Below, in pieces: positions 12,697 to 43,703 of a DNA stretch of 45,319 bases. The position numbers and the translations under genes are program-made. The stretch lies in contig PLBS01000092.1 of the NCBI GenBank assembly GCA_003134595.1, forward strand, positions 1-45,319, given 5' to 3'. Under the pieces are notes generated by a model that saw nothing but the letters and a program-made list of their open reading frames with translations, did no database searches and was not told the DNA's origin. Positions within the stretch are counted from its first letter, which is position 1; every line of letters starts with the position of its first letter. The DNA comes from Gallionella sp. Its GTDB lineage: Bacteria; Pseudomonadota; Gammaproteobacteria; Burkholderiales; Gallionellaceae.

Positions 12697-12772
12697 GCTG
12701 GAGTAGCTCAGTTGGTAGAGCAACGCACTCGTAACGCGTAGGTCGGAGGTTCGATTCCTCTCTCCAGCACCA
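12697..12772 (+). tRNA. tRNA-Thr (anticodon CGT), CCA encoded
   Basis: GCTGGAG acceptor / CTCCAGC, D-arm GCTCAGTTGGTAGAGC, anticodon loop CTCGTAA, T-arm GGAGGTTCGATTCCTC, 3' ACCA. Confidence 0.93.
12724..12772. repeat. attL: 49-bp direct repeat of tRNA-Thr 3' end
   Basis: CGCACTCGTAACGCGTAGGTCGGAGGTTCGATTCCTCTCTCCAGCACCA identical to 43655-43703. Confidence 0.95.
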
Positions 12773-13199: not shown

Positions 13200-13544
13200 A
13201 TGGACCAACATCATCTCGCTTTGCCGCATACAGTCGCGGCACACTTCAATTTTCTAACACAGCAATTCCCCGGAAAACTTTTAATTACGCCGGTCGAGGC
13301 GGGCGGGGTGCTGGGCTTCAGCAAACCTGCAAGCTACAAACGTGTTTGCAACGGCGGGCGACAAGACTTTCCGAAATTTGTTATTTGCAGCGGGCGCAAG
13401 ATGGTGCGTCTCATCGACCTTGCAGAGTACCTGGACCGACTAACCAATACTCCCAGCACCACACCATCCGCGCCCGCGCATGGTAAGCGAACGAGAGGCC
13501 GCCCTACAAAGGCCGAGCAGATAGCACGAGCGCAGCAGAAATGA
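13200..13544 (+). CDS. Small putative DNA-binding/regulatory protein upstream of trfA-like gene
   Basis: ATG start; 'LLITPVEAGGVLGFSKPASYKRVCNGG...FPKFVICSGRKMVRLIDLAEYLDRL' resembles AlpA/PrtN-type HTH layout; stop overlaps next start. Confidence 0.6.
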   Translation: MDQHHLALPHTVAAHFNFLTQQFPGKLLITPVEAGGVLGFSKPASYKRVCNGGRQDFPKFVICSGRKMVRLIDLAEYLDRLTNTPSTTPSAPAHGKRTRGRPTKAEQIARAQQK

Positions 13545-14455
13545 CATCCGGCCAAGGCCGAGGCGGTGCCCCGTTGAAAGCCGCCGAAGAGCTCGGCTCC
13601 GGCTTGGAGGTGTTAAATCCTCCGAACGCTGTCGCGCGTGCAACAAAACTATGGGAGGCCGAAAAATCCAGACAGCGGCATCAGAGCAAACCACTGCCGC
13701 CAACCGTGGCGCAGCTTCCGTTATGGGCCGACACGCTACGTTGCTTGCCTAACGAAATTTTCCGTTCCGCTCTGTTCAATGCCCGTAACCGCAATCAGGC
13801 CCGCGCCTACCTTAAGCAATCCGAAATCACTGTGATCGGTGAAGGCCGCATTACCTTCACTGGCGAGGAGTTGCGACAAGACGATGAAACGGTGTGGCTG
13901 CAACTGATACACATAGCGAAGGAACTCCCTCTAGGGCAGACCGTTGAGTTCACGCCTTACAGCCTTTGCAAAGCTATTCGCTGGCCTATAGATGGCAGCA
14001 GTTATACGCGCTTGCGCGGCTGTCTTGATCGGATGCAGGCAACATCCCTGGCGGTCGTTTCCAAGCGGCTAAAAGAGGGGGTGAGCATATCCATGATTCC
14101 CATATTCAAGTGGAAGGACAATGAGACAGGCCGAGCATTGCGACTCTATCGAGTTCAGGTTGCGCCGCAGCTTATGGATTTGTTCGGGGACGTGCATTAC
14201 ACCTATTTGGAGTGGGAGCAGCGCCTGGCCTTACCGGTTGGCATTGCCACGTGGTTGCATGGATATTTAGCCAGTCATCGCCAGCCCTATCCCATCAAAA
14301 TCGACACCATCAAGAACGGTGCAGGCATGACTACAGAACGAACTGCCAAGGGTCGTGAGTTAGTAGAGAAAGCGTTACACGAACTGATGATTGTGGGGTT
14401 CCTTGCCTCATGGGAGATTGTTGGCGAGCTGATCCATGTGAAGCGGAAGTTTTGA
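13541..14455 (+). CDS. TrfA-like plasmid replication initiator
   Basis: 'LPNEIFRSALFNARNRNQ', 'ITFTGEELRQDDETVWLQLIHIAKELPLGQTVEFTPYSLCKAIRWPIDGSSYTRLRGCLDRMQATSLA', 'WLHGYLASHRQPYPIKIDTIK' parallel IncP TrfA. Confidence 0.85.
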   Translation: MTSGQGRGGAPLKAAEELGSGLEVLNPPNAVARATKLWEAEKSRQRHQSKPLPPTVAQLPLWADTLRCLPNEIFRSALFNARNRNQARAYLKQSEITVIGEGRITFTGEELRQDDETVWLQLIHIAKELPLGQTVEFTPYSLCKAIRWPIDGSSYTRLRGCLDRMQATSLAVVSKRLKEGVSISMIPIFKWKDNETGRALRLYRVQVAPQLMDLFGDVHYTYLEWEQRLALPVGIATWLHGYLASHRQPYPIKIDTIKNGAGMTTERTAKGRELVEKALHELMIVGFLASWEIVGELIHVKRKF

Positions 14456-19847: not shown

Positions 19848-21002
19848 ATGACCTTGACCCTGAATGATTACCAGCAGATTGCGTTCGAAACAGACGTTTT
19901 GAATAGCGATAAAAAGGACATAAATTTCCCGTTGCTTGGACTGTTTGGAGAAGCTGGTGGTCTATTAAGCGCCCTGAAAAAACATCAACGTGAAGGTGCG
20001 GCCTTTTCTAATTATGAGGCTGTTATAACTGAGGAGATGGGTGACTGTCTCTGGTACTTGGCGAATATCTGTTCACGCATAAACCTTCGCCTTAATGATC
20101 TCGGCTTTTCTGTCTCTCGCGGGAAACGACCGAAAGCGGGCGCAAAGTTACATATTTTAGATTTTGATGACTTGCAAGCCTTTGCGACCACGAACAGGAT
20201 TGCAAAAAACCTAACGGACCTAAAAGTGTTGCTGATTTTGGGAACCAATGTGGGGAAAGTGCTTGGTCTAGCAAATGACGGGAAATCAACTTCGGATCTT
20301 CGGGGGGCGCTACAGGAAGTCCTACATGCAATTGCGGCGGTAGCCGCTCAGGCAAAATTGTCATTAGCAAATGCTGCAGAAAAGAATCTTGAAAAGATAC
20401 AAAGCCGGTGGCCAAAAAAGCAGGTATACCCTCCCTTACTGGATGAAAGTGCATTACCACATGAACAACTCCCCAGAAAAATTGAAATTACGTTCATCGA
20501 ACGAAAGGCGGCCGGGAAGAAAAAATACGTTGTTCAACAATGCAAGGGTTTGAACATCGGTGACCGGCTCACCGACAACAATGTGAAAGACGATGACTAT
20601 CGATTTCATGATGTCTTCCATCTCTCGTATGCAACATTTTTAGGTTGGTCGCCGGTAATACGGGCGCTTTTCAAGGTGAAGCGAAAGAGTGAGCCTGACG
20701 TGGACGAAATTCAAGACGGCGCCCGGGCAATTTTGATTGAAGAAGGTATCTCAACGTGGATTTTCAATAGAGCACACCATGACTTAAAATTATTCCAAGG
20801 TGTTAATTCGGTCGACTATTCACTTTTAAAGACTGTTCATGACTTTACCGTCGGCTATGAAGTAGAAAATAGCTACCTTTGGCAATGGGAAAAAAGTATC
20901 CTGGAGGGATTCAGAGTCTTTCGTGAATTGAAGAAGCATCGCGGAGGAACTGTCATAGCAAATCTTGAAACACACGTATTGAAATACCGAAAGCCTATAT
21001 GA
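19848..21002 (+). CDS. MazG-like nucleotide pyrophosphohydrolase-domain protein with long C-terminal region
   Basis: 'FPLLGLFGEAGGLLSALKKHQREGAAFSNYEAVITEEMGDCLWYLANI' (E..E..EExxD helices); C-terminal 'RFHDVFHLSYATFLGWSPV...GARAILIEEGISTWIF' helical domain. Confidence 0.75.
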   Translation: MTLTLNDYQQIAFETDVLNSDKKDINFPLLGLFGEAGGLLSALKKHQREGAAFSNYEAVITEEMGDCLWYLANICSRINLRLNDLGFSVSRGKRPKAGAKLHILDFDDLQAFATTNRIAKNLTDLKVLLILGTNVGKVLGLANDGKSTSDLRGALQEVLHAIAAVAAQAKLSLANAAEKNLEKIQSRWPKKQVYPPLLDESALPHEQLPRKIEITFIERKAAGKKKYVVQQCKGLNIGDRLTDNNVKDDDYRFHDVFHLSYATFLGWSPVIRALFKVKRKSEPDVDEIQDGARAILIEEGISTWIFNRAHHDLKLFQGVNSVDYSLLKTVHDFTVGYEVENSYLWQWEKSILEGFRVFRELKKHRGGTVIANLETHVLKYRKPI

Positions 21003-21694
21003 CAGATGCTGAAATAATTGTTCGGCGGCTCAGTGCCATAGAGCTACCTAATGTTTTTAATCCATATCGTGACGTCTGCTCTGTCCATGACACACAGGCA
21101 TCTCCCGCGAAGCGTCGTCAAAATCTAATCAGCCAACTGCAAGCTACCATCACCGGGAATATCGATACGATCTGGTTTGGCAGAGACCTAGGCTACCGAG
21201 GAGGACGGAGAACAGGGGTTGCTTTAACTGACGAGGCGCATTTGCCAATTTTGGCTAAAAGATGTGGAAGTGATCGGATAGCCCGCGCGACAAAAGGCCC
21301 CGCCGTCGCAGAACGGACTGCAAATGTGATCTGGCAAGTATTATCAGAATTGCCGTCCCTTCCATTTCTATGGAACGCTTTTCCATTCCATCCCCATGAA
21401 CCGGGTGACCCAATGAGCAATCGTTGTCATTCAAAAAAAGAACTCGCCACGATTTGGCCGCTAAATCTTTACTTGCTTGAAATTTTGCAGCCTACGCGAG
21501 TGATCGCGATTGGAAACGATGCTTATGCGGCCCTAAGCTATCTCGGGCTGCAATGTGAATATGTGCGGCATCCCAGTTACGGTGGGCAATCAGATTTTTT
21601 GCGGGGAGTCCGAAAAATATACAACTTGCCGGAGCGACCAGATTTCCATAAGGCATCATCAAATCATGATCAGAAGGAGTTGGAACTCGCATAA
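20999..21694 (+). CDS. Uracil-DNA glycosylase superfamily-like protein
   Basis: 'FGRDLGYRGGRRTGVALTDEAHL', 'LWNAFPFHP', 'RVIAIGNDAYAALSYLG', 'VRHPSYGG'; ATGA overlap with MazG-like gene. Confidence 0.72.
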   Translation: MTDAEIIVRRLSAIELPNVFNPYRDVCSVHDTQASPAKRRQNLISQLQATITGNIDTIWFGRDLGYRGGRRTGVALTDEAHLPILAKRCGSDRIARATKGPAVAERTANVIWQVLSELPSLPFLWNAFPFHPHEPGDPMSNRCHSKKELATIWPLNLYLLEILQPTRVIAIGNDAYAALSYLGLQCEYVRHPSYGGQSDFLRGVRKIYNLPERPDFHKASSNHDQKELELA

Positions 21695-21751
21695 TTAGCG
21701 ATGGAGTGATTGAGGAGAGATTAAAATCTAAAAATTACCAGGGGTAAGAAA

Positions 21752-22225
21752 ATGAGCGGCGAAATACGAAATGTTTTCATCAGTCATGTACACGAAGATG
21801 ACGCAGCATTGAAGGACGTACGCGCTTTGTTGGGTACCCGGGGGTATACCATTCGTGATGGATCAATTCATAGCGGAACTCCTAACGACGCGAAGAACCA
21901 TGACTACATTAAGAATGGGATTTTAACGCCACAAATAAATTGGGCGGGTACGATGATCGTCGTGATCTCTCCTACAACTCACAAGAGTGACTGGGTAAAC
22001 TGGGAAATCGAATATGCCGAAAAACAAGGAAAGCGTATCGTCGGTGTCTGGCTGCAAGGGGCGCAAGAATCAGATATTCCTGAGGCGCTAAAACTATATG
22101 CAGATGCGGTTGTTGGTTGGCAAGCGGACCGAGTTATCGGAGCTATAGAGGGTGAAATAAATAATTGGTCAAATTCCGACGGCAGCGAACGTCCCGCGCA
22201 AACATTACCACGTTATAGCTGCTGA
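21752..22225 (+). CDS. TIR-like (DUF1863/ThsB-type) protein
   Basis: 'RNVFISHVHEDDAALKDVRALLGTRGYTIRDGSI', 'TMIVVISPTTHKSDWVNWEIEYAEKQGKRIVGVWL' with conserved Glu in WEI. Confidence 0.87.
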   Translation: MSGEIRNVFISHVHEDDAALKDVRALLGTRGYTIRDGSIHSGTPNDAKNHDYIKNGILTPQINWAGTMIVVISPTTHKSDWVNWEIEYAEKQGKRIVGVWLQGAQESDIPEALKLYADAVVGWQADRVIGAIEGEINNWSNSDGSERPAQTLPRYSC

Positions 22226-22235
22226 ACGGGCCACA

Positions 22236-22841
22236 ATGCGACTTTACTCGTATGTTGTCGCGCGTGATTATGGGTTTGCGCCGAATCCGTTTCATGGGGT
22301 ATGCACACTCGCAACTTGTAAGCCGGTAATTCGAAGATGCGCCAATGTTGGCGATTGGATTGTGGGCACTGGATCGGAATCTCACGGCCTCACAGGACAC
22401 TTGGTTTTTGTCATGCAGGTATCTGAAAAAATGACCTATAACCAGTACTGGAGCGATCCTCGCTTTCAGAACAAGCGCCCCGATCTTCACGGAAGCCTCA
22501 AACAAGCTTTTGGCGATAACATCTACTATCGTGACCAGACCACCAATGTGTGGCATCAGGCTCCGTCTCACCATAGTTATGCAGACGGAAGCGCGAACTT
22601 AGCCAATATAGAGAACGATACGCAGACGGATTTTATACTTGTGGGCGAACAATTTGCCTATTGGGGTGGAAGTGGCCCTCTGCTTCCAGCCAGATTTCGC
22701 AGGGTCGCTGGCCCGAATATATGCGCAATCCGTGGGCATAAATGCAACTTCCCGCCAGGTTTTGTTGACTCGTTTTTGGAATGGTTCGAGTCTCTAAATG
22801 TGTCTGGTTATTTATATAGACCCAAGCAGTTTAAATTGTGA
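22236..22841 (+). CDS. Nmad2-like (nucleotide modification associated domain 2) protein
   Basis: 'LYSYVVARDYGFAPNPFHGVCTLATCKPVIRRCANVGDWIVGTGS'. Confidence 0.75.
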   Translation: MRLYSYVVARDYGFAPNPFHGVCTLATCKPVIRRCANVGDWIVGTGSESHGLTGHLVFVMQVSEKMTYNQYWSDPRFQNKRPDLHGSLKQAFGDNIYYRDQTTNVWHQAPSHHSYADGSANLANIENDTQTDFILVGEQFAYWGGSGPLLPARFRRVAGPNICAIRGHKCNFPPGFVDSFLEWFESLNVSGYLYRPKQFKL

Positions 22842-22886
22842 CTGCGAGAGCCGCTTTCCGTCCAAAATGAAACTTTGAAAAATTAG

Positions 22887-23435
22887 ATGTCCAATTCTGG
22901 CCTGCTCAGTATTTTTTCGCAATCGCTCGATGTTCCCGTTAAACGCGAAATTTTCGTGAGCTACCATCACGCTGCCGATCAATCATGTTATGAAGAATTT
23001 TCTCGTGCTTTTCACGATCAATATGAGGTGGTGAATGATAGCTCGCTTGATCGAGACATTGACAGTGACAATCCAGAATACGTGATGCGGAGAATCCGCG
23101 AGAATTACATAAAGGGCACCTCATGCACTATCGTCCTGTGTGGATGGCAGACGCCTTGGCGAAAGTATGTTGATTGGGAGATCAAAGCGTCGTTGGATAT
23201 GCAGCACGGTTTAGTCGGCGTGCTATTGCCAACGAACCCGATACTGGACAACGGAGGCTCGCATAAACCGGATCGTCTGCAAGATAATGTAGATTCGGGA
23301 TACGCGGTCTGGACCAATTGGACTACTTTGTCTGGCGAGGCATTAACAACCGCGATCAATAGTGCTGTCGCGAAATCGAGTGCACTAATCATCAATAATC
23401 GTCCTTTGCTGCAACGTAACGGCGAGCACCCATAA
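22887..23435 (+). CDS. Second TIR-like (DUF1863/ThsB-type) protein
   Basis: 'KREIFVSYHHAADQSCYEEFSRAF...VRIREN..', 'CTIVLCGWQTPWRKYVDWEIKASLDMQHGLVGVLL'. Confidence 0.85.
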   Translation: MSNSGLLSIFSQSLDVPVKREIFVSYHHAADQSCYEEFSRAFHDQYEVVNDSSLDRDIDSDNPEYVMRRIRENYIKGTSCTIVLCGWQTPWRKYVDWEIKASLDMQHGLVGVLLPTNPILDNGGSHKPDRLQDNVDSGYAVWTNWTTLSGEALTTAINSAVAKSSALIINNRPLLQRNGEHP

Positions 23436-23473
23436 TATTGACCATCGAACCACACAAAATAGGGAATAACCGT

Positions 23474-24688
23474 ATGCCGAAATTAGCGCCAAAGCCATTT
23501 TTTGTACTTCACGTTATATGGCATCCAGCGTTCACCAAGGGGAAAAAATTAGCCGAGGTTTTATTCAATCACTATCAAGCGGATTGGACGAATCGTATTG
23601 GCGCAGGAATTGGTGTGCCTGTAAGACAGCATTGTGGTCCTGAGGGAACGCCGACCGTTCCGTCAAGTATTGACCTTGACGAATCTGAAACAGCTGCGAT
23701 TGTAGTACTTGTTGATGACGTGTTTGCTGCCGACCCAAAGTGGGTCGCGCTCTTTCAAGGACTCAGTAAAAAAGCGTCTAAGAAAAAATATAGTCATATC
23801 GTGTTTCCGGTTGTATTCAGCGATGAAGCTTTGCACAAGTTGCAAACTTCCACACAAGCAATACGATGGAGTGAATGGCGTAAGGATAAAAATTCAGAAA
23901 AACGCGTCAAACTTCTTGCGCATTTGACGTACCAGTTTTCTCGAATGTTACGCACCTATCTTGAAACGTTGAAACATCCTGCCGCTGATGACAAAATGTT
24001 GGAGTCGTACCTTGAGAAAGTTCGCGTTTTCCTCAGCCACTCCAAGCATGATCCGATCGGTGAAAGTCTCGCCCTTGCCATTAGAAAATACATTCAGGAT
24101 AACCTCGGAATGGCGTCTTTTTTTGATGCTATTGAAATAGCTCCTGGCCTTCAGTTTGACGAGGTGCTGTCACATTGCGTGCGGCGGAGCGCAATATTGG
24201 CGTTGCAAACTGATTCATTTTCCACGCGTGAATGGTGTCGCCGAGAAATTCTGGAAGCAAAGCTCTATGGGAAGCCAATCGTTGTAGCGAACTGCCTCGT
24301 TGACCGAGAAGAGCGTGGCTTTCCTTATCTTGGAAATGTACCAGTCATTCGAATGAACCCCTCCGAAAATAAGCGCATAGTCCATGTAATATCACGTTTA
24401 CTGGATGAAGTTTTCAAAGACTTTGTGTGGGAATGCCAGACGTTGTTGTATCGGAGAAAAAAATCAACGGTCGAATTTATCTCATCTCCACCCGAGCTAC
24501 TAACGCTTATTCGTTACACCGAGGCAGGCGCTGACGGAAAATTTCGCGCTGTACCGAAAACGATTGTTTATCCCGATCCGCCATTGTCCAAAGAGGAAGA
24601 GCTGTTGTTTGAAAAGCTTGTTCCGGGCACAGACGTGAAGTCATATCAGCAATGGCAAAGTAGTTTACTTGCGACGGCGGGAGCTTAA
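23474..24688 (+). CDS. TIR-domain protein, apparently two TIR modules
   Basis: C-terminal module 'KVRVFLSHSKHDPIGESLALAIRKYIQDNLGMASFFDAIEIAPGLQFDEVLSHCVRRSAILALQTDSFSTREWCRREILEAKLYGKPIVVAN'; N-terminal half has similar topology. Confidence 0.85.
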   Translation: MPKLAPKPFFVLHVIWHPAFTKGKKLAEVLFNHYQADWTNRIGAGIGVPVRQHCGPEGTPTVPSSIDLDESETAAIVVLVDDVFAADPKWVALFQGLSKKASKKKYSHIVFPVVFSDEALHKLQTSTQAIRWSEWRKDKNSEKRVKLLAHLTYQFSRMLRTYLETLKHPAADDKMLESYLEKVRVFLSHSKHDPIGESLALAIRKYIQDNLGMASFFDAIEIAPGLQFDEVLSHCVRRSAILALQTDSFSTREWCRREILEAKLYGKPIVVANCLVDREERGFPYLGNVPVIRMNPSENKRIVHVISRLLDEVFKDFVWECQTLLYRRKKSTVEFISSPPELLTLIRYTEAGADGKFRAVPKTIVYPDPPLSKEEELLFEKLVPGTDVKSYQQWQSSLLATAGA

Positions 24689-24689
24689 C

Positions 24690-25499
24690 ATGTTAGATGC
24701 CTCCAAATTATCTGGAAAACGGATCGCGGTGTCGGTATCCGACAGCCCAGACCTTGCTCAACTAGGATTGAGCTCGCAACATCTGCACCAGGCGATGGCT
24801 GAAATCGCTCAATATTTACTTGCGTCCGGGGCCCACTTAATTTACGGAGGAGATTTGCGAGCAAATGGGTTTACGTCAATACTCTTCGAACTTGCTGCCA
24901 GATATCAAAACAGGTCGGCAGAAAGCCGGGTAATGTTTACGAATTACTTGCCGTGGGCGACACACGTCGGGAAATCGTCTGACGAATTACTGGCAATTCA
25001 AGAAGAGGTAGAGCCATATGGAAAGTTGGTATTATTGTCTGAAGACGGGAAAGAAATGCCCATAAAAAAGAAGAAAAAGATCGCTGATGAGAAACCATCA
25101 CCTGCTGCTTGGGCGGCATGTCTTACTGCGATGCGTGACGTAACGACAGAAGTAGCTGATGCTCGCGTTCTACTCGGTGGGAGTGTCAGTGGCTTTCTGG
25201 GATCAATGCCTGGCATTGCAGAGGAAGCGCTAATTAATATCCGAAAGAAAAAGCCGACATACCTCTTGGGAGGATTTGGCGGGTGCGCCAGCGATATTGT
25301 CGAAACGATAGCCGGTTCCCGACGGCATTCGAAGCGCGTATGGGCAGGAAGGAAGAACTTCAAGGCAGTTACGGTCAAAGATCTTGTGAATGGATTGAGC
25401 CCGAAGCGAAATGAACACATGGCCACATCTCCTTTCCTTGAAGTAATTATTCCCTATTTGTTGAGCGGTCTTGATCACAAGTTAAACGGGCGCCAGTAG
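24690..25499 (+). CDS. SLOG-domain-like (Rossmannoid nucleotide-binding) protein
   Basis: 'KRIAVSVSDSPD', 'YLLASGAHLIYGGDLRANGFTSILFELAARY', 'TYLLGGFGGCASDIVETI'. Confidence 0.75.
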   Translation: MLDASKLSGKRIAVSVSDSPDLAQLGLSSQHLHQAMAEIAQYLLASGAHLIYGGDLRANGFTSILFELAARYQNRSAESRVMFTNYLPWATHVGKSSDELLAIQEEVEPYGKLVLLSEDGKEMPIKKKKKIADEKPSPAAWAACLTAMRDVTTEVADARVLLGGSVSGFLGSMPGIAEEALINIRKKKPTYLLGGFGGCASDIVETIAGSRRHSKRVWAGRKNFKAVTVKDLVNGLSPKRNEHMATSPFLEVIIPYLLSGLDHKLNGRQ

Positions 25500-25828: not shown

Positions 25829-28800
25829 ATGGACGTTTTTGAATTCAGAGAAAAACTGGTGACCGACTACTCCGACTTTACTCGGAGTTTTACAAGAATC
25901 AAGGCGCGAGACATCAAAGACTTTGTCGATCACGAATACGATTCCCAGAAATATTGGCCAGCACCCCTCATTCAAGTCAATCCAAATTTCAGGCAGGGTG
26001 CCACCGTTCAAAAGTTAGTTGATGCTGGCGTGCTGCATCCAGATTGTTCCAGAATTTTTCGTTACGGGAAAAGCAAAGAGTCTGCGGGAATAAGCTTGTT
26101 GTTGTTCCAGCATCAGCAAGAAGCTATTAGCTTCGCTCAAGTAGGAGCCAGTTATGTTCTAACAACTGGAACTGGTTCAGGCAAGTCACTCGCGTATTTC
26201 ATACCGATTGTTGATGCAATTCTCAAGGCTAAAGCGAGCGATCCGACTAAGCGCACACGAGCCATCATCATTTATCCGATGAATGCGCTCGCCAATAGCC
26301 AACTGGAAGAGCTTGGAAAATTCGTATCTGATTTTTCAGATGCGGATGCACCAATCACATTCGACAGATATACCGGGCAAGAGAGTGATGAAGAGCGCCA
26401 ACGCATAGCATCTAGCCCGCCGGACATTCTTCTGACCAATTTCATGATGCTTGAGTTGTTGATGACACGTCAGGACGACAAGGATAAGGCGGTTATTCGT
26501 AATTCAAAAGGGTTGCAGTTCCTCGTGTTAGACGAGCTTCACACCTATCGAGGTCGTCAGGGGGCGGATGTCGCTTTGCTGGTTAGGCGTATTCGAGAGG
26601 CGTTATCAGGCAAACTGCAATGTATCGGCACCTCGGCAACGATGGCTACAGATGGCACACAGGATGAGCGTAACACTGTTGTGGCGAACGTAGCGAGCAA
26701 GCTATTTGGAACGGAAATCAGGCCAGAGCATGTTATTACCGAAACTCTGCAACGAATTACTGATGAGAACTTAGTCGTTGAAAGTATCAAGCCTCAATTG
26801 GCATCTGCGTTGGCAGCAGGGATTGATGATCAGGCAACCTATGATGAATTGCGCAAGCATCCCTTGGCGGTCTGGGTTGAACTGACGCTCGGCCTTTCAA
26901 TGGAGGGAACCAAGTGGCGTAGAGCGCAGCCACTAACGTTGGCGGAAGCGGCAAAAAGATTGGCTGCTGATGCGGGTGTTGCTGAATCAATTGCCAGTGA
27001 CACACTAGCTAAGTTCTTGCTCATCGCTTACGGAGCAATTGACCAGAATGGGCGTAGTCTGTTTGCATTCAAGTTGCACCAGTTTATCTCCGGTGGGGGC
27101 AAGGTATTTTCTTCACTTGAGTCAGATGGGCATCGTTTTCTGACGCTCGAAGGACAGCAATATGTGCCGGGCGATAGGAATCGCAGGCTCTATGCGGTTC
27201 ACTTCTGTCGAGAGTGCGGCCAAGAATATTATCCAGTTTGGGATGAGAAACAGTCAGATTCCACTTTCCTTACACCCCGGAATATTGACGAGCGAAACAA
27301 TGAAGATGAAGAAATCAAAAACGGTTTCTTCATGCCAGATGAGACAGGAATATGGGATGACGTAATAGAAAAATATCCGGAAACCTGGTTGGAGCAGAAG
27401 GTTGATGGTGAGTTAAGACTGAAATCGTCATTCAAAAAATATCAGCCGATGTCGCTAATCATCATGCCAGATGGCGAAGTAGGAGCCTTTGGTGTTAAGG
27501 GTTGGTACATTCCCGGTGCATTTCGTTATTGCCTTAACTGCCAGACCACACACCAAACATCCGGTAAAGACTCGCTAAGACTGACATCCCTATCCGGTGA
27601 AGGGCGCAGCTCGGCTGGAACGATGCTGACCATTAGCGCGTTGCGTTACCTGTATGAAGATGATGAGCACCTCTCGGCAGACGCCAAGAAAATTCTCGGC
27701 TTTACCGACAACAGGCAGGATGCTGCACTGCAAGCCGGGCACTTTAATGACTTCATGCAGGTTTTGCTATTGCGCAGTGCCTTGCTTGCAGCAATAGAGA
27801 ACAGCCCGCAACACGCGCTGTCAGAAAACGAAATAGCATCTGCTGTGTTATCGGCATTGGGATTTGAACGGGATGACGCTGGAATTCGTGCAGAGTACAT
27901 GCAAGACCCAGATGTGAAGGGAAATGCACGTCGTCAGGTGCAAGATACTTTGCGCAACATCTTGGGCTATCGAATCTACTATGACCTCCGGCGTGGCTGG
28001 CGTTTCAATAACCCCAACTTGGAACAACTGGGGTTAACGCGAGTCACCTATCAGGACATTGAAGAAATGGCTGCGGATGAAGCCGAATGGCGTGATGCTC
28101 CACTCATCCTGTTATCTGCCAGTAGCAGTGTTCGTCAGGCGGCCTTGCAAAAGTTGTTCGATGCCATGCGTCAAGGGTTATGCCTTTCTACGCGCTATCT
28201 GGATCGTATTCAGTTGGATAAGCTCAAGACCGAAAGCTATAGCAACCTACGTGAGCCATGGGGATTTACCGAGGATGAGAAGCCGGTCACTTCCAACTGG
28301 TTCATCACCAAAAGCAAACCGCGAGATGAATACAAGCACAATACCGACTACCTGATCTCCGGAAGTCCTCGTTCCAGGTTAGGGCGAGAATTCAAAAAAC
28401 GTAGCTTATGGGGAGAAGGAAATCCTCACGCAGGCAAGATTGATGATGTTGCGTGTGAGCAAATCATCACGGCGCTGCTTAAATTAGCCAAGCGCTATGG
28501 ATTGGTTGTCGAAGAAGAAACCGAATTCGGGATTACGGGCTACCAGTTGAACGGGAGTAGTTTGCTGTGGCAACTGGGTGATGGAGAGAGTCAGGCCAAT
28601 GCCAACGACAACCGATTCTTTCGTAATCTCTATCGAAATATCTCCGGCTTATTGCACAATCCTACGCACAGATTGTTTGATTTTGAAGCGCGTGAGCATA
28701 CCGCTCAAGTCGAGCAGAGCGACCGCATGGAACGCGAGGCTCGCTTCCGCTACACCAGTAAAGATCGAGAACAATGGCTGGCGAGTACCGGCAAGCAACT

Positions 28801-31132
28801 TGAATGGCTACCCGTTTTGTTTTGTTCGCCGACCATGGAGTTGGGTGTCGATATCAGCTCACTCAACACGGTTTATTTGCGGAATGTCCCACCCACACCA
28901 GCCAACTATGCTCAGCGTAGCGGACGAGCAGGGCGGGCAGGACAACCGGCACTCGTGATTACTTATTGCGCCGCACAAAGTCCGCACGACCAGTATTTCT
29001 TTCGAGATCCCGTCAGGATGGTGCATGGGCAAGTTAATCCACCGACGCTTGACCTCGCCAACCGCGAGCTGATTCAGAGTCATCTTCATGCAGTTTGGTT
29101 GTCGGAGACAGGTCAGAAGTTGGATAACAGCATTTGCGGTTTGCTGGATATGAATCAGCCAACAACGCCAATTTTGCCGAACCTTCAGGACATCCTGGAT
29201 ATGCCAGCAGCAAAACTACGCGCCCACCAGCGCGGTGTGAGCATACTCAATATGCTGCAAGATGAGCTGACCAAGGTTAAGGCTCCGTGGTATTCAGAGC
29301 GATGGGCTGAGTCTGTATTTCAGCGCGCCTTCCAAGAATTTGACCATGCGCTCGATCGCTGGCGTGAATTGTTCCGTGCCACCACGCGCCAGATGGACAT
29401 CAATCAAAAGGTGATGAACACCCCGGCAGCTTCTGAGCGTGAGCGAAGGGATGCCAAGCAGCGCCATGACGAAGCGTTCAGGCAACGCGAAATTTTGTTG
29501 CAGCAAGGCAGCACACTGAACTCAGATTTTTACACCTATCGTTACCTTGCCAGCCAAGGCTTTTTGCCCGGTTACAACTTCCCAAGGTTGCCACTCATGG
29601 CATACATTCCCGCGCGCAGGGGCAAAATAGGCAGGGAAAATTTCTTGAGTCGACCAAGATTTTTGGCACTGTCAGAATTTGGCCCATACAGCCTGATCTA
29701 CCACGAAGGAAGTCAGTATCGGGTTACGAGGGCATTGCTCTCGGTGTCGGCAGACGACCAAGTGGCAGTCGGTGCCCAGCTTTCCACGGAATACGCCCGC
29801 ATTTGTCCTGCGTGTGGCTATGGGCACTTCCGTCAGCAAAGAGACTTTGACCGATGTGTTGCGTGTGGCACGTTGCTTGAAGGGGCGAAAGAAATTCGCG
29901 CTCTGTATCGAATCGAGAACGTTTCCACACGGCGCGCGGAACGCATTACAGCCAATGAGGAAGAGCGCGTTCGTCAGGGCTACGAAATGCAGACCACCAT
30001 GCAGTTCTCCGAAGAGGATGGAAAGCTGCAATGCGTCAAAACACTATTCAAGGACGAGCAAGGCGAGTTACTGGAATTGCAGTACGGTGCAGCGGCAACT
30101 GTTTGGCGCATGAACCTTGGTTGGAGAAGGCGCAAAGACAAGAGCATCCTCGGCTTCAATATCAATCCGGTGACAGGTCATTGGGTGGGTGGCGCGGACG
30201 AAACAGGTGAAGGTGAAGTGGATTTGCCACCGGATGTCACTCCGCCTCAGCGCATCGTTCCTTATGTTGAGGATCGTCGCAATGTATTGGTTATCCGGTC
30301 TCCCGAGGTACTCGACATCACCACCATGGCGACATTGCAATACGCCATCAAGCGCGGTATTGAAGCGATTTACCAATTGGAAGAAAGCGAACTGATGGCC
30401 GAGCCTTTGCCGGGGCGCGACCCACGCTTGTCCATCCTGCTGTATGAGTCTGCGGAAGGCGGCGCAGGAGTGCTTACGCGACTCGCTACAGAACCCGGCG
30501 CGCTGGCAGAGGTGGCGGCCAAAGCACTTGAAGTCATGCACTTCAAACGTCCTGATAACGGATTGTGGAATGCGCAGACCCTACAAGAGGATGTTGGTAC
30601 AGATGGACAATCTAATTGCGAAGCGGGTTGTTACAAGTGTTTGCTGTCCTATTACAACCAGCCCGACCATACCGTGATTGATCGCAAAGATGCGGCTAAC
30701 GATGGCAAAGTCCTTGATATTCTTTGTCGGTTGACCCGTGCAAATGGCGAAGTGGGTAGCGTGGAGAAAAGTGCAACTGAGCACAGCAATGAATTGCGCC
30801 GGATTTCCGGAAGCTCACTTGAGCACGCCTGGTTGGACTTTGTTGAACAGCATGGATACTTAAAACCAGATCGCGGGCAGGAAACGATTGAGCGTTGCCT
30901 GACATGCGCGGATTTTTACTACCATGACTGGAAAGCTGCTATCTACATTGATGGCCCCCATCACGATGAACCAGCGCAGCGCGAGAAAGATGCGACCATC
31001 AATCGGTGCCTTGATGATGCCGGATATTTGGTCATCCGTTTCCCCAAAGAACAATCCCGTTGGCAGGAGATATTTGCTGCGCACGCAGACTTGTTTGGAA
31101 CTGGAAAAATCACTGGCACTAAGAATTCATGA
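25829..31132 (+). CDS. Large DEAD/DEAH helicase with DUF1998-type region and C-terminal Vsr/PD-(D/E)XK-like domain
   Basis: '[18 protein letters not shown]', '[23 protein letters not shown]', '[41 protein letters not shown]', '[14 protein letters not shown]...[18 protein letters not shown]', C-terminal '[36 protein letters not shown]'. Confidence 0.9.
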
Positions 31133-33957
31133 ATGCACCACAAGTAAATTTTCAGCCCGGCAGTTTGGTCAGTGCGAGAAACAGAGAGTGGATCGTATTA
31201 CCGCAGTCCACCGCCGAGACTCTATATCTACGGCCATTGGGAGCGGCAGAGGAAGATGCCACCATCCTGTATTTGCCGATTGAACCCCAGCCGGTCGTGG
31301 GGGCGACTTTTGCGTGGCCTACAGTAAAGCAGGCCAGCAACCATGCGGCCAGCCAGCTATTACGCGATGCACTGCAACTGAAATTACGCTCCGGTGCAGG
31401 CCCGTTCCGTAGCCTGGGCAACATCGCAGTTGAGCCACGGGCTTATCAATTGGTGCCGCTCTTGATGGCACTGAAACTCGACGTGGTACGTTTGCTGGTA
31501 GCAGATGACGTAGGTATCGGCAAAACCATCGAGGCTGCGCTGATTGCGCGGGAGTTGCTGGATAGGGGTGAGATTCAGCGGCTGGCAGTTTTGTGTCCAC
31601 CGCACCTATGCGAACAGTGGCAGCGGGAATTGCAGGATCGTTTCCACATCAATGCTGCCGTTGTTCGAACCAGCACAGCAGGACGCTTGGAACGCGGACT
31701 GCCCGCAGGTCAATCGATCTTTGATGCCTACCCTTTCACCGTGGTCAGTCTGGATTACATCAAGTCAGATCGCCGCCGCGATGAATTCCAGCGTGCCTGT
31801 CCAGAATGCGTCATCGTTGATGAGGCGCATACCTGTACCCATAGCGGGCAAGGCAAGCAGCAACGTTATCAATTGTTGAAAGGACTCACCGAGAATCCAG
31901 ACCGACACATGATTCTGCTGACCGCCACGCCACATAGCGGCGATGAAGATGCCTTCTTTAATTTGCTCGGACTGCTCAATCCAGAATTTACTCAGCTCAA
32001 GGATCTACCTCACGAAAGTCGCTCAAAACTTCGCGAAGACCTCGCTCGCCATTTCGTGCAACGTCGCCGTCCAGACATCGAAGAATGGCAAGATAACAAA
32101 CTCTTCCCGGAACGACTCACAGCAGAAATAACCTATCAGCTCAGTGGCGCGTGGGGAAAACTGTTCGGGGACGTGCTCGACTATGCGCGTGAGCTGGTCG
32201 TGCGTGCCGAAGGGCAAGGACTACGTGAACAGCGCATGAACTGGTGGGCAGCCTTGGCACTGTTGCGCTGCATTTCTTCCTCACCGGCAGCCGCCGTCAA
32301 CGCCTTGCGTACTCGATTGTTGGGAGTGCAATCCGAACAGGGAACAGAAATCGATCTGGAAGAAATCGAGCGTCAAGCACAAGAGCGGGTCATGGATGGT
32401 ACGGATGACAGCCTCTCCACGGATGACATTGAGCCAGCTGCGCGCACAGAGGATTCCGAACTATTGAATGATCTGATTGCTGCCGCCGGAAAAATGGCTG
32501 GCAAGAGCAACGATCCCAAGCTGGCGAAGCTCATTACTCACCTCGATGAACTCATCAATGCAGGATTCCAGCCGGTCATATTTTGTCGCTACATCGCCAC
32601 CGCACATTATCTGGCCGAACACCTGCGCGCCCACTTTAAGCAATCTACCGTGAAACCCGTAACGGGTGAATTTACCCCCGGCGAACGGGAAGCCGCGGTA
32701 CAGGAACTTGGCGAATCCGAAAACCGGATACTGGTTGCGACCGATTGCCTGTCCGAAGGTGTCAATCTCCAAAACCTGTTTACTGCTGTTGTCCACTATG
32801 ATTTGTCATGGAACCCAACTCGTCATGAGCAGCGGGAAGGACGCGTGGATCGTTTCGGGCAAAAGGCACGCGAGGTGCGCACCACCATGCTGTATGGCCA
32901 AGACAACCCGGTTGATGGCGCGGTATTGCATGTCATCCTGCGCAAGGCAGAAAGCATACGCAAGGAATTGGGTGTGTTGGTTCCCATGCCGGATGACGAA
33001 GGCAAGCTGACCCAAGCCCTGCTCAATGCGGTGCTGCTGCGCAAAGGGGGTTCTGCCGCCAAATCGCCACAGCAATCTCTCGATTTCGGCCAGCCTGCGC
33101 AGGAAATAGAAACTGCTTGGCAGAGTGCACGCGACAAGGCATCAAAAAACCGTACCTTGTTCGCACAGCGTCGCTTGAAGCCTGAGGACGTGTTGCCTGA
33201 ATGGCAAAAGACCTTGGCAGTATTGGGTGGCGAAGCAGACGTTGTTCGCTTTATTTCTCGTGCTGCTTCCAAGCTGGGTGCACCACTCGAAGCATGGCGC
33301 AACCACTGGAAGCTACACGTCAACCATCTCCCGCCAACCATTCGAGAACGACTCGAAGGCGAGGGTTTATCCGGCACAATGCGCATCGACTTTCATCAGC
33401 CACCCGCACCCGGAGCTACCTTCATCCACCGTACCCATCCATTGGTTGCCTGTATTGCGGATTATTTGCTGGAACGTGCGCTGGATACAGAAGGACGACC
33501 TGAAAGTGATGAAACCGATTGGATCGCTCGTGCTGGAGCAATCTTTACCGAAGCAGTCAGCTCGCGCACAACCGTCTTGCTGCTTCGCTTGCGTCACCAG
33601 CTCACCGTGACGCGTGCGACTGGCTCACGCCTGCTGCTCTGCGAAGAAACGGTCGCCCTTGCGCTCAGTGGCGGGGATAGTTCGACACGCCTGCCGGAAG
33701 AACAAGCCCGAACCCTGCTAGATGCACAGCCAGCGCGCAACATGCCGACTGCATTACGTGACCGGCATATCCAGCAAGCCATAGATGCTTTGCCGGGATG
33801 GACTCCGTTGCTAGAAGGTATTGCCCAGGAAAGGGCACAGCAACTTCTTGAAGATCACCGTCGGGTGCGTGAAGCTTCCGATGCAAGGGGAAGTTACCAA
33901 GTTACCCCTAGCTTGCCGGTGGATGTAATGGGCGTTTTCGTCCTCGTTCCGGCATGA
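31129..33957 (+). CDS. SNF2-family helicase (DrmD-like)
   Basis: '[24 protein letters not shown]', 'VIVDEAHTC', '[21 protein letters not shown]', '[24 protein letters not shown]'; ATGA overlap with upstream gene. Confidence 0.9.
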
Positions 33958-33969
33958 GGAATTAGCAGA

Positions 33970-36900
33970 ATGGCAAAACGCTCCTCCACCGAACTTGCTT
34001 TCTCCGCCATCCGCATCGAAGGCGGCTTGCTTGCCGCCGACTTTTTGGGCCGCGTCGCGCGCTTCGATGCAACGGGTCAAGCAGAAGCGGATTATGACAT
34101 TCCCAAAGGGCTGAAACTTCGCGACGAGATTGGCCGCTACTGGAAGATCGCGCTCAATCTCTGGCAGGATTTTCAGGCGGGGCAGCAGCGCACCGATCAT
34201 GACGCGCACAGCTTCACCAGCAAGGATTTTCTTGAGCCATTTTGTCGGCATGTGTTGGGTTTTACTGATATGCAGGCGGTGGGGCAGATCACTTTGGCTG
34301 AACGGATTTTTCCAATCGGCTATCAGACACTGGCCGGGCAGGTGCCGCTGGTATTCGCCGCGCATACGCTGGGTCTGGAGCAAGCTGACGTCCGCTTTGG
34401 CGATGGACACCGCCGCCGTTCCCCCTTCTTGCTGGCTCAGGAATATCTCAATGCCGAAGACAAATGCCTATGGGCGATTGTCAGCAATGGCCTGAAGCTG
34501 CGCATCTTGCGTGACAACCCCAGCCTGACACGCCCCGCCTATATCGAAGTGGATCTCGAATCTATCTTCAACGAAGAACGCTACCCAGATTTCACCGCAT
34601 TTTGGTTGCTGGCACACGCCACCCGATTCGGCAGTCAACAAGCCGCGCACAGCGGTCATCCTGCCGACTGTCATTTGGAGCGCTGGCGCAACACCTCGCA
34701 GGAATCTGGCATTCGTGCGCGTGAACGCCTGCGCGATGGCGTGGGCGAAGCATTGCGGGCATTGGGCACCGGCTTTGTCAGCCATTCTAAAAATACCGCG
34801 CTGCGCGAACAGCTCGACAGCGGCGCTTTAACTGCCCAAGCCTATTACGAACAACTGCTGCGCCTGATTTACCGCTTCATCTTTTTGGCGACGCTGGAGG
34901 ATCGGCAAGACGAACAGCGTGGTACGCCGCTTGTGTTTGCGCCCGAAGCCGACGAAGCTGCTCAGGAACTATACCTGCGCGGCTATTCGCTCAATCGCTT
35001 GCGTGAGCACGCTGCCAAACGCCGCCACTATGATCGTTACAGCGACCTCTGGCAGGGCTTGGGCATTGCCTTCGCGGGCTTGGCTAAAGGCCAGCCCGCA
35101 CTGGGGCTGCCCGCATTGGGCGGCCTGTTCACGGCTGAACAATGCCCTCACATGGACGGCGCACAACTGGAAAACCGCTACCTGCTGCAAGCAGTGTTCG
35201 GCCTCTGCTTCTTCCGCGAAGGCGCGGCACTCACCCGCGTCAACTACCGTGACATGGGTTCCGAAGAACTCGGCAGCGTGTATGAAAGTCTGCTGGAACT
35301 GGTGCCGGTGGTCAGTGTCAGCGGCGGGAGTAGAAAGTTCGGCTTCGTCGGCGATGAAGAAAAAGCCAGCACCAAAGGTAACGCGCGCAAGCTCAGCGGC
35401 AGCTACTACACGCCGGACAGCCTAGTGCAGGAACTCATCAAGAGCGCGCTGGAACCCGTCATCGCGCAAACCTTGCAAGCCAACCCGCAGCAACCGGTCA
35501 AGGCGCTGCTTGGCCTGACGGTTTGCGACCCCGCCTGTGGCTCGGGTCACTTTTTATTGGCGGCGGCTCGTCGCATTGCCGAAGAAGTGGCGCGACTCAA
35601 TGCCAGCGAAGGCAACCCGCTGCAAGGCGATTACCGCCATGCCCTGCGCGAGGTTGTCGCCCACTGTATTTACGGCGTGGATAGAAATCCGATGGCGGTG
35701 GAACTCGCCAAGACTGCACTGTGGCTGGAGGCATACACCCCGGATAGGCCGCTCACCTTTCTCGACCATCACCTGCGTTGCGGCGATGCCCTGTTGGGTG
35801 TGCTCGATCCGGCTATATTGGAAAACGGTATCCCCGACAAAGCCTTCAATGCGTTATCCGGCGATGACAAGGAGGTGGTGAAAGTATTGAAAAAGGCCAA
35901 TAGAGAGGCGCTCAAAAGCATTGGAAAAGTGCAGCGGCAGGAGTCAATGACCAACTGGCTGGATGCCGTAAGCCCAACCGCTGCACTGGAAGCCCTGCCG
36001 GATGACACCCTCGAAGCCATCGCAGTTAAGCGCACCGCCTTTGCGCAAGTCGAAGCTCACGCCGCCCAATCCCGTGCGCGCATTGCGGCGGATTTATTTG
36101 TTGCCGCCTTTGTTTTGCCAAAAACACCTGCCAACCAGAGCTTTGTTCCGACCAGTCAGGATTTGTGGCTGGTAATGAATGGCAGCGCACCGCGACCCGG
36201 TGTGCAGGCAGCAGCGATGCAGGCTGCGCATACCGCTCAAGCCTTCCATTGGCAATTGGTATTTCCACAGATTTTCTCCCCTCGCCCGCTTGCGGGCGAG
36301 GGAGCGGGGGAGAGGGCCTCAGGCTTCGATGTGTTGCTGGGCAACCCGCCATGGGAACGCATCAAACTGCAAGAGGAAGAATTCTTCGCTACGCGCAGCC
36401 CGCTGGTGGCCGAATCCCAGCACAAGGCCGAGCGCGGGCAGCGCATCGAACTACTCAAGCAAGGCATGTTGTTGCACACGTTGTATCCAGAAATTGAAGC
36501 CGCACAAGGTTTGATGCCACCGAATCAGGCCGAGCAACAATTGTATGCCGAGTTTCTATCGGCACGACGCAGCGCAGAGGCTTCCAGTCTGTATGCGCAC
36601 GATTCCAATCGCTATCCGCTCACCGGCGTGGGCGACGTGAACACCTATGCGCTGTTTGCCGAAACATTCGCGCAATTGATGAGTGAACACGGGCGCGCTG
36701 GTTTCATTGTGCCAGCAGGTATTGCCACTGACGATACAACCAAGCGGTATTTTCAATTTTTAGCCGATGGGCGGCTTATTTTGTTTGTTGGATTCGACAA
36801 TGCCCGGCGAATATTTCCCTCTGTCCATCCAGACACACCTTTCGCACTTGTGACTATAGGACATAGCAATGTTGATTCAAAGCTTGCTCACTACATTCTT

Positions 36901-38505: not shown

Positions 38506-38518
38506 GGGCAAGCCGGAC

Positions 38519-40510: not shown

Positions 40511-40524
40511 GTAGAAGGACAAAC

Positions 40525-40791
40525 ATGACTCTATTTCAAACGAAATACCAACAGTTGACTCCAAGAGACGGCTTTCTGAAAGACATGGTTGTGCTGGCGC
40601 AGGCGTGGAAGAAAACTCACACGGCAATTCGTCGACATAACTGGTATGCCGATGTGTTGGGTGCAGATTGTTCCTCGGAAGTTTTACGCGTGCTTAAGAA
40701 TAGCGAGCTGCGCCAATTCGGCGAATACCGCACCCGCCGTCTGGTGCTGGAGGCTTGGGATCAACTGGCGGGCAATGGAGTTTCTCTATGA
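40525..40791 (+). CDS. Small chimeric ORF; C-terminal half duplicates a segment of the methylase
   Basis: 'SSEVLRVLKNSELRQFGEYRTRRLVLEAWDQLA' vs methylase 'PSETFRVLKNSEIREFGEYRTARLVLREFDRMA'. Confidence 0.6.
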   Translation: MTLFQTKYQQLTPRDGFLKDMVVLAQAWKKTHTAIRRHNWYADVLGADCSSEVLRVLKNSELRQFGEYRTRRLVLEAWDQLAGNGVSL

Positions 40792-41576
40792 CACAAGCGA
40801 CAGGTGACGTGAAACTTTCGCCGTTGCAGATCGCTCAGTTGGCAAAAGCCGCGACCGACCAAGGGTTTGACCTCTCGCCCGTGGAAGAGGGGGGCTGGTT
40901 GTTCTGCCGATCCACCCAGTTCCCGGAACGGGTGTGGCTCACCAATGCGGATGGCGGCTATCAACTGGCGTGTGATTCACAACGACTGTTGGATGAATTG
41001 GCGCGCGAGGGGCTGAGCGTGGATCAGGGGGCATCGCTGCCAACGAATGCCAAGGGCACTGTGCATCTGGCCGAGTATGGCGAGCTGTATCAGTTGTTGG
41101 GTCGCGTAGCTGTTCTCGCGAAAATCGCGCCGGATAGACTGGTCGAAGAGTTCGTTGCCGCAACCCAATCCCTGCCCGAATCCACCGAAGTCGAACGGCT
41201 GGTGAAGCAGCGCGTGGGGCAGGATATTTTTCGCAACGCGCTTATTGCCTTCTGGCAAGGCCGCTGCGCCGTGACTGGCTTGGCAGTAGTTCCATTGCTG
41301 AGAGCCTCTCACATCAAGCCGTGGGCGGATTGCGAGAATAATCAGGAACGCTTAAATGTGTTCAACGGGCTGCTGCTCGCCCCGCATCTGGACGCGCTGT
41401 TTGATGGTGGGTGGATCACCTTCGACGATGCAGGCAGGCTGGTGAAATCGCCCTTACTGGATGATGTCGCCGTGCAGCTGCTGGGCGTGACCAGCGAAAT
41501 GAAGCTCAATCATCTTGCAGAAGATCATCGTCCGTATCTTGATTACCATCGGCAGCATGTTTTAAAAATAGCATAA
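40788..41576 (+). CDS. HNH endonuclease (HNH_2-type)
   Basis: 'CAVTGLAVVPLLRASHIKPWADCENNQERLNVFNGLLLAPHLDALFDGGWITFDD'; ATGA overlap with preceding ORF. Confidence 0.92.
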   Translation: MTQATGDVKLSPLQIAQLAKAATDQGFDLSPVEEGGWLFCRSTQFPERVWLTNADGGYQLACDSQRLLDELAREGLSVDQGASLPTNAKGTVHLAEYGELYQLLGRVAVLAKIAPDRLVEEFVAATQSLPESTEVERLVKQRVGQDIFRNALIAFWQGRCAVTGLAVVPLLRASHIKPWADCENNQERLNVFNGLLLAPHLDALFDGGWITFDDAGRLVKSPLLDDVAVQLLGVTSEMKLNHLAEDHRPYLDYHRQHVLKIA

Positions 41577-42555: not shown

Positions 42556-43548
42556 CTAACCCAACTTCTTTGCCAAGTCCTCGGCTCTTGGATGGTAGTA
42601 CCGCGCCAGCATCTTGGTGTCCTTATGGCCGGTGACTTTCATCAGCTCGTGCAGTGCCAGCTTCTCGGCTAGCCGGCTGGTTGCCTCGTGTCGCAAGTCG
42701 TGGAAGGTCAAGCCTTCAATGTCAGCACGCTTACAAGCCCTCGTCCATGACTGCACTACAGCACTTTGAGTTGTACTGAATACCTTGTCCCCAATGGAGC
42801 GGGGCAGGGCGTTCAGGACAGCTTTTGCGCGATTTGAGAGCGGTACATCGCGCGATGTACCGTTCTTTGTGTCTGATAAATGGATGTGTGATTTTTTTAA
42901 GTCCACGTCCGCCCATTCTATTTGCAGTAACTCGCCCTGGCGCATTGCCGTTTCGATAGCCATAGCCACAAGCGGGTGCATCCAGTGGTTAGCAAGATCG
43001 CCCTTGCCACTATCGGAAAGTGCGGCTAGCAATCTTTCCTCTTCATCACCATCAAGACGACGTTCGCGCGCATTGCGAACAGAAGGCATCCGAATATTTT
43101 CAATCGGGTTCTGTACGTTAATGCCCCATTCTTTCCGGCAGATCGTAAAGAGGTGCGAGATCACAGACAGATCACGCCGTGCCGTTGCCGGAGCGACTGT
43201 CTTAAGCCTCTTGTCGCGCCACTTTGCAAAATCTGAACCCTTTAGGGATGCCAGCGACCTATTCGCTAATGGATCGTTCAACCACCACCTGAACCGCACT
43301 AGCTCTGCCTTGATTCCCTTTTTGCTACTGGATACTTCGGTCATGTATCTTTCGATTGACTCGCGCAGTGTTGTAGTTTCTGCTTCTGCTCGATTCTCGA
43401 ACACGCCGCGCCCCATTTCGCTTTCTGTGGTTTTGGCCCATAATTCAGCATCGCCGCGCGTAGTGAAAGTTTTTTGAACGGGCGCAAATCCTTTTTTCCT
43501 GATTTGAGCTTCCCACTGCAAATCACCTCTTTTCCGGATTGTGGCCAT
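42556..43548 (-). CDS. Tyrosine recombinase / phage-type integrase
   Basis: 'ETAMRQGELLQIEWADVD', 'LTFHDLRHEATSRLAEK', 'VTGHKDTKMLARYYHPR'; MATIRKRG start at 43548. Confidence 0.94.
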   Translation of the reverse strand: MATIRKRGDLQWEAQIRKKGFAPVQKTFTTRGDAELWAKTTESEMGRGVFENRAEAETTTLRESIERYMTEVSSSKKGIKAELVRFRWWLNDPLANRSLASLKGSDFAKWRDKRLKTVAPATARRDLSVISHLFTICRKEWGINVQNPIENIRMPSVRNARERRLDGDEEERLLAALSDSGKGDLANHWMHPLVAMAIETAMRQGELLQIEWADVDLKKSHIHLSDTKNGTSRDVPLSNRAKAVLNALPRSIGDKVFSTTQSAVVQSWTRACKRADIEGLTFHDLRHEATSRLAEKLALHELMKVTGHKDTKMLARYYHPRAEDLAKKLG

Positions 43549-43565
43549 CGATATTCCCTTTCCAC

Positions 43566-43583
43566 TGTGGCAAAATTGTGGCA
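43566..43583. promoter_or_regulatory. Candidate integrase arm-type site, right
   Basis: TGTGGCAAAATTGTGGCA, identical 18-mer at 12868-12885 near attL. Confidence 0.55.
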
Positions 43584-43654
43584 AATAATAGATTTGAGCA
43601 TATTTAAACGCTGCAACCTATTATGAACTAAAGAGATTATGTATTCAAGAAAAG

Positions 43655-43703
43655 CGCACTCGTAACGCGTAGGTCGGAGGTTCGATTCCTCTCTCCAGCA
43701 CCA
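43655..43703. repeat. attR: 49-bp direct repeat of tRNA-Thr 3' end
   Basis: Identical to 12724-12772; no upstream tRNA half present here. Confidence 0.95.

Follow-up and report, generated by a model that had tools for sequence, protein, structure and literature searches.

A candidate Thoeris-like operon linking TIR and SLOG proteins to a base- and nucleotide-handling cassette in Gallionella

We analysed a 45,319-nt stretch of Gallionella sp. DNA (assembly GCA_003134595.1, contig PLBS01000092.1, positions 1-45,319; the whole stretch is called the window) and found that seven consecutive genes at 19848-25499 probably constitute a Thoeris-like abortive-infection system, in which a TIR-made signal would be read by a SLOG protein that governs a TIR effector, and which appears to be a sister of Thoeris type III. 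All seven open reading frames lie on the + strand and are separated, in order, by -4, 57, 10, 45, 2 and 1 bp when the SLOG gene is started at ATG 24690; the alternative listed start, TTG 24669, gives a 20-bp overlap with the preceding double-TIR gene. The genes are as follows, UDG denoting uracil-DNA glycosylase:

19848..21002, + strand: MazG nucleotide pyrophosphohydrolase with MazG_C, 384 aa (Pfam MazG_C 2.2e-77, MazG 2.6e-5)
20999..21694, + strand: UDG-superfamily-like DNA base glycosylase, 231 aa (motifs RDLGYRGGRRTG and HPSYGG; Pfam UDG 0.19)
21752..22225, + strand: TIR1, ThsB-type TIR protein, 157 aa (catalytic E85, C-terminal Cys; Pfam ThsB_TIR 1.9e-22)
22236..22841, + strand: Nmad2 protein, likely PUA/ASCH/EVE/YTH-like fold, 201 aa (Pfam Nmad2 3.6e-66)
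22887..23435, + strand: TIR2, ThsB-type TIR protein, 182 aa (catalytic E98; Pfam ThsB_TIR 2.1e-22)
23438..24688, + strand: double TIR, a degenerate TIR followed by a catalytic TIR (E270), 416 aa, TTG start (Pfam TIR_2 1.6e-6)
24690..25499, + strand: stand-alone SLOG protein (LD_cluster2), 269 aa from the ATG (Pfam LD_cluster2 1.1e-68)

The close-packed, same-strand arrangement described in a first-pass annotation is thus borne out, and the family identities proposed there hold for six proteins through Pfam matches and are probable for the UDG-like protein through motifs and homologue annotation. PADLOC profiles identify TIR1 as ThsB over its full length (3.5e-63) and include no model for the SLOG, Nmad2, MazG or UDG proteins of the operon. 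Pfam searches of the seven proteins found no SIR2 or macro match, as first annotated, no ThsA match and no caspase-like protease domain. The source genome contains no ThsB-type TIR gene beyond those of the operon and yielded no STALD domain in a search that ran without a positive control.

The gene set recurs across distant bacteria, which answers the neighbourhood check proposed at first pass. Searching one genome per species with the SLOG alignment yielded 79 loci in Pseudomonadota, Cyanobacteriota, Myxococcota, Planctomycetota, Chloroflexota, Actinomycetota and other phyla, including one archaeal bin; querying genomes with the SLOG protein alone had given no matches. Together with plasmid and genome-survey loci, 92 LD_cluster2 SLOG loci were surveyed. 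These are partly related, as the 62 aligned SLOG proteins fall into 43 clusters at 70% identity. The double TIR adjoins or is fused to SLOG in 86 of the 92 loci, with natural double TIR-SLOG fusions in 23, and three of the six loci that have no adjacent double TIR end at a contig boundary. Near SLOG we also found a ThsB-type TIR gene (63/92), Nmad2 (35/92) and MazG (26/92), and Nmad2 directly follows TIR1 in 45 of 45 cases. Two TIR1-Nmad2 pairs are present in each of four loci (L017, L019, L085 and L125), and in L019 and L125 the two pairs fall far apart on the Nmad2 tree; L012 has a second SLOG gene. Background rates are low: among 398 genomes of the phylum, the source genome counted, SLOG occurs in 7, Nmad2 in 6 and MazG_C in 4 (1-2% each). 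Clustering is therefore far above chance, and chance co-location across so many phyla can be ruled out. An origin as phage-encoded genes finds no support, since a search of a phage collection gave no SLOG or Nmad2 relatives; one IMG/VR contig encodes TIR2, the double TIR and SLOG.

These neighbourhoods also bear on whether the operon is really two independent systems placed next to each other, MazG-UDG-TIR1-Nmad2 on the one hand and TIR2-double TIR-SLOG on the other, with nothing in common but a promoter or an island. The cassette does occur without an LD_cluster2 SLOG gene, the SLOG and double-TIR pair occurs without the cassette, and the orientation and order of the cassette differ among loci. 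We nevertheless consider this arrangement unlikely: the genes here are consecutive, on one strand and separated by short gaps, their co-occurrence is far above the 1-2% background, loci without the LD_cluster2 SLOG often encode another SLOG effector (ThsA, or ThcA of Thoeris type III), and a ThsB-type TIR on its own would have no reader.

The SLOG protein belongs to the LD_cluster2 family (Pfam PF18163, 232.2 bits against a cut-off of 25.3) and carries a candidate ligand pocket. Residues R156 and E186, numbered from TTG 24669, are invariant in 62 of 62 homologues and align, via a ThsA homologue, with R371 and E403 of BcThsA, which are among the three residues that coordinate 3′-cyclic ADP-ribose (3′cADPR; PMC10022894). 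A PDB sequence search returned no useful match for the protein. Fusion of a related SLOG domain with a patatin phospholipase also occurs (hhalign 98.4%, E 4.4e-15). Patatin genes with an N-terminal SLOG lie at L127:7941-9617, L128:7929-9623, L118:2055-3677 and L116:9696-11312, on enterobacterial and Cupriavidus plasmids (L116 being a genome), within multi-TIR clusters that contain ThcA and ThcB4. Their label, 'CBASS cGAMP-activated phospholipase' (cyclic oligonucleotide-based antiphage signalling system), rests on the C-terminal lipase domain, the N-terminus being SLOG; we set CBASS aside, and these proteins are probably TIR-signal-gated lipases.

Catalytic residues are retained in three of the four TIR domains. 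In alignments of homologues, E85 of TIR1 is kept in 44 of 45, E98 of TIR2 in 56 of 56 and E270, in the C-terminal domain of the double TIR, in 51 of 51. The N-terminal TIR of that protein has no conserved Glu at the catalytic position, which corrects the first-pass annotation. An AlphaFold model of a natural double TIR-SLOG fusion (predicted local distance difference test score (pLDDT) 80.7, predicted template modelling score (pTM) 0.86) places the SARM1 TIR NADase as the best Foldseek match of the catalytic TIR. Top Foldseek rows for the fusion model were mainly TIR and generic Rossmann-like structures, giving no independent structural confirmation of the SLOG fold. All 45 TIR1 homologues carry a Cys at their C-terminus or close to it (codon 22223-22225 in the window) and TIR2 homologues frequently end in R-N-G/S/A, which suggests a functional tail.

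Comparison with known systems places the operon closest to Thoeris type III. NCBIfam (June 2026) names the LD_cluster3 SLOG protein of that type ThcA (NF058525) and its TIR partner ThcB4 (NF058526), and we judged membership by these two models. Both halves of the double TIR show homology to ThcB4 (hhalign 94.8%, E 5.6e-8), yet the protein scores 29.6 bits with NF058526, whose cut-off is 220, and the window SLOG has no NCBIfam match, NF058525 included. In both systems the gene for a two-part TIR protein is immediately followed by the SLOG gene, with several ThsB-like TIR genes around them, the SLOG families share an MR...GG...G(I/V)xxE layout and the same TIR1-Nmad2-MazG-UDG cassette is a companion. 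They differ in SLOG family, LD_cluster3 in type III and LD_cluster2 here, with a weak alignment between the two (31%, E 5e-4), and in the frequent double TIR-SLOG fusion, a feature of the operon's family. Given this homology to ThcB4, and because neither NCBIfam model recognises its protein, the operon is, on profile comparisons, a sister variant predicted to work like type III but lying outside it as the available models define that type.

The other Thoeris types share less with the operon. Type I has the same kind of ThsB protein, with TIR1 matching the PADLOC profile and retaining its catalytic Glu, and a SLOG-type sensor whose R371 and E403 have equivalents in the operon SLOG, and elsewhere the cassette adjoins a true ThsA; however, the type I effector is a SIR2-STALD ThsA, whereas the operon effector would be a TIR protein, with SLOG as a separate gene of another SLOG family. 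In types II and IV, as proposed for the operon, a TIR-made ADP-ribose signal is passed to a separate effector (PMC12847820), but the macro-transmembrane protein of type II and the caspase-like protease of type IV have no counterpart among the seven proteins. Brig1 is a UDG-superfamily glycosylase active against modified phage bases and encoded near Thoeris-like genes, but it acts alone (PMC11078745). The DefensePredictor report (PMC13092281, 2026) lists MazG, MazG-C, NMAD and UDG systems as predicted defensive and unvalidated, credits several domains to Burroughs 2015, flags the 5-hydroxymethyldeoxyuridine (5-hmdU) DNA kinase as defensive, and includes among validated systems some labelled thymidylate synthase, deoxynucleoside monophosphate kinase, 5-hmdU kinase and NMAD; its main text mentions neither TIR nor SLOG. 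Part of the operon may already have been drawn in Burroughs 2015. The first-pass description of the system as undescribed thus has to be narrowed: NCBIfam already names a parallel TIR and SLOG pair, ThcB4 and ThcA, the first of these being a homologue of the double TIR, and the nucleotide-handling domains had been flagged as defence candidates in PMC13092281, which cites Burroughs 2015.

The remaining genes form, with TIR1, a base- and nucleotide-handling cassette. In the MazG protein (numbered from 19764), E63, E90, E91 and D94 and a D-x-YRFHDxFH motif are invariant or nearly so among 31 homologues. The MazG_C region (20433-20993) carries a highly conserved D-x-YRFHDxFH...KRKS...D-x-x-DGxRA...EE pattern, which suggests a second active site. 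The motifs RDLGYRGGRRTG and HPSYGG of the UDG-like protein are invariant or nearly so in 22 homologues, and homologues in the same locus position are annotated as uracil-DNA glycosylase; its Pfam UDG score is below threshold (0.19) and PDB UDG chains match at E 0.1-0.6. For Nmad2, an AlphaFold model (pLDDT 92) retrieves many ASCH, EVE, YTH, THYN1 and McrB N-terminal domains among the top Foldseek matches, several of them structures solved with modified DNA or RNA but none scoring below E 0.05, and ASCH and EVE proteins appear again among matches in a viral library; a PDB sequence search gave no useful match. Judged from the model, Nmad2 likely adopts the PUA/ASCH/EVE/YTH fold, a superfamily of modified-base readers.

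The enzyme beside MazG-MazG_C is exchangeable. This slot holds the UDG-like protein in 21 loci, a protein with Pfam HMUDK_hel (5-hmdU DNA kinase) in 26 and both in 0, against an overlap of 9.75 expected by chance (P about 1e-8 if loci are independent). Mapped on the Nmad2 tree, the UDG/kinase label changes 6 times, with at least 2 changes forced by well-supported branches, so the slot enzyme has been replaced repeatedly. Uracil-type bases in DNA are the substrates of both the UDG and the 5-hmdU kinase families, in keeping with a modified-pyrimidine theme. The cassette also varies in its company. On a Cupriavidus plasmid, TIR1-Nmad2-MazG-UDG lies beside ThsA (SIR2-STALD, 6.8e-182), a ThcA/ThcB4 pair (TIR and LD_cluster3 SLOG) and a SLOG-patatin fusion, and on other plasmids it lies beside the TIR and LD_cluster3 SLOG pair only. 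By its gene neighbourhoods, the cassette accompanies at least three predicted SLOG effectors: the SLOG-gated TIR, SIR2-SLOG and ThcA/ThcB4.

Elsewhere TIR1-Nmad2 adjoins a thymidylate synthase homologue, a TylF-like methyltransferase, a radical-SAM protein and a relative of 5-hmdU DNA kinase, neighbours that would suit a cassette devoted to producing a modified nucleotide or to marking the cell's own DNA, with the TIR proteins responding to loss of the mark or using the modified base as a base-exchange acceptor, a reaction of which TIR proteins are capable (PMC11204291). The cassette enzymes of the window only hydrolyse or excise (MazG, UDG) and none synthesises, and we regard this alternative as improbable. 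The most likely role of the cassette is to detect or process unusual pyrimidines of phage DNA, as nucleotides or as bases. The first-pass idea that these proteins might target modified phage bases gains support from the Nmad2 fold and from the UDG/5-hmdU-kinase slot, and we still advance a modified-base trigger of the operon only tentatively. Slightly more doubtful is the fuller proposal of a Thoeris branch keyed to modified pyrimidines, in which Nmad2 would read the base, MazG would clear odd deoxynucleoside triphosphates and a swappable UDG or 5-hmdU DNA kinase relative would act on the base.

The DNA itself shows which genes are present, how well they are conserved, the fusions, the catalytic residues, the swapping of the cassette and the mobility; from these we infer the biochemical steps, the signalling order and the trigger of the Thoeris-like system. 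Infection would be sensed by the ThsB-type TIR1 and TIR2 proteins, which would convert nicotinamide adenine dinucleotide (NAD+) into an ADP-ribose-type messenger. This messenger would bind the LD_cluster2 SLOG protein at the Arg156/Glu186 pocket, and the messenger-bound SLOG would switch on the second, catalytic TIR domain of its neighbour, the double-TIR protein; destruction of NAD+ by the activated double TIR would then stop the infected cell, resulting in abortive infection. Nmad2, MazG-MazG_C and a base-acting enzyme, UDG here and a 5-hmdU-DNA-kinase relative elsewhere, would serve as partners of TIR1. A TIR signal read by SLOG, as surmised at first pass, is favoured by the double TIR-SLOG fusions, by the invariant counterparts of R371 and E403 and by the presence of the cassette beside other SLOG effectors.

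Several observations weigh against this scheme. Taken alone, the SLOG-to-ThsA alignment scores low (2.5%, with a single ThsA sequence); the third 3′cADPR ligand of ThsA, K388, has no conserved SLOG counterpart; and the same Arg/Glu pair is catalytic in LOG enzymes. Moreover, in 27 of the 92 SLOG loci none of the five other genes occurs within 7 kb, in some owing to contig ends, and the Foldseek matches of Nmad2 are weak (best E 0.07). Conservation of the Arg/Glu pair supports ligand binding but, because the ThsA profile link is weak and LOG enzymes use the pair in catalysis, is no proof of a sensor over an enzyme. SLOG could instead be both enzyme and effector and the double TIR the signal producer, the LOG-type Arg/Glu hydrolysing a nucleotide, for example to shorten the TIR product or generate a toxic base. 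The R156, GG, PG and EE motifs fit the catalytic layout of LOG phosphoribohydrolases, and Glu is retained in the catalytic TIR; the equivalent ThsA residues bind signal, however, and the fusion of a related SLOG to patatin, an obvious effector enzyme, fits a regulatory SLOG. We judge an enzymatic SLOG to be rather unlikely, and prefer SLOG as the reader of a TIR-made messenger.

Thoeris triggers are known in few cases, among them phage capsid proteins (PMC12578639). If the proposed scheme is true, the cassette ties nucleotide-based alarm signalling to the detection of modified phage DNA, which is often missed by restriction enzymes, and under a modified-pyrimidine branch phages that hypermodify their DNA to escape restriction would set off NAD+-depleting suicide. 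The operon family would widen Thoeris by a SLOG family undetected by the 2023 PADLOC and 2026 NCBIfam sets, and points towards new TIR signals.

The operon lies within an integrative element of about 31 kb (12724-43703) at tRNA-Thr, as indicated by exact 49-bp att repeats and an adjoining tyrosine integrase:

12724..12772, + strand: attL, 49 bp, the 3′ end of tRNA-Thr(CGT) at 12697-12772 (ARAGORN), an exact direct repeat
42556..43584, - strand: tyrosine integrase of the element (Pfam Phage_integrase 6e-26), adjoining attR
43655..43703, + strand: attR, the second exact copy of the 49-bp repeat

The G+C content of the operon is 46.6%, against 55.7% in the left flank, and the element also encodes a TrfA-type replication initiator (13541-14455). 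Downstream of the operon, a second defence-like cluster on the same element (25829-41576) has a gene mix that fits no single named system among those compared. It encodes a 1767-aa helicase with MZB and DUF559 (DruE1-like, 2.1e-96), an SNF2 protein matching DpdE (2.3e-220), an Eco57I/DrmMI-like methyltransferase, an LmuB-like coiled-coil protein and an HNH nuclease.

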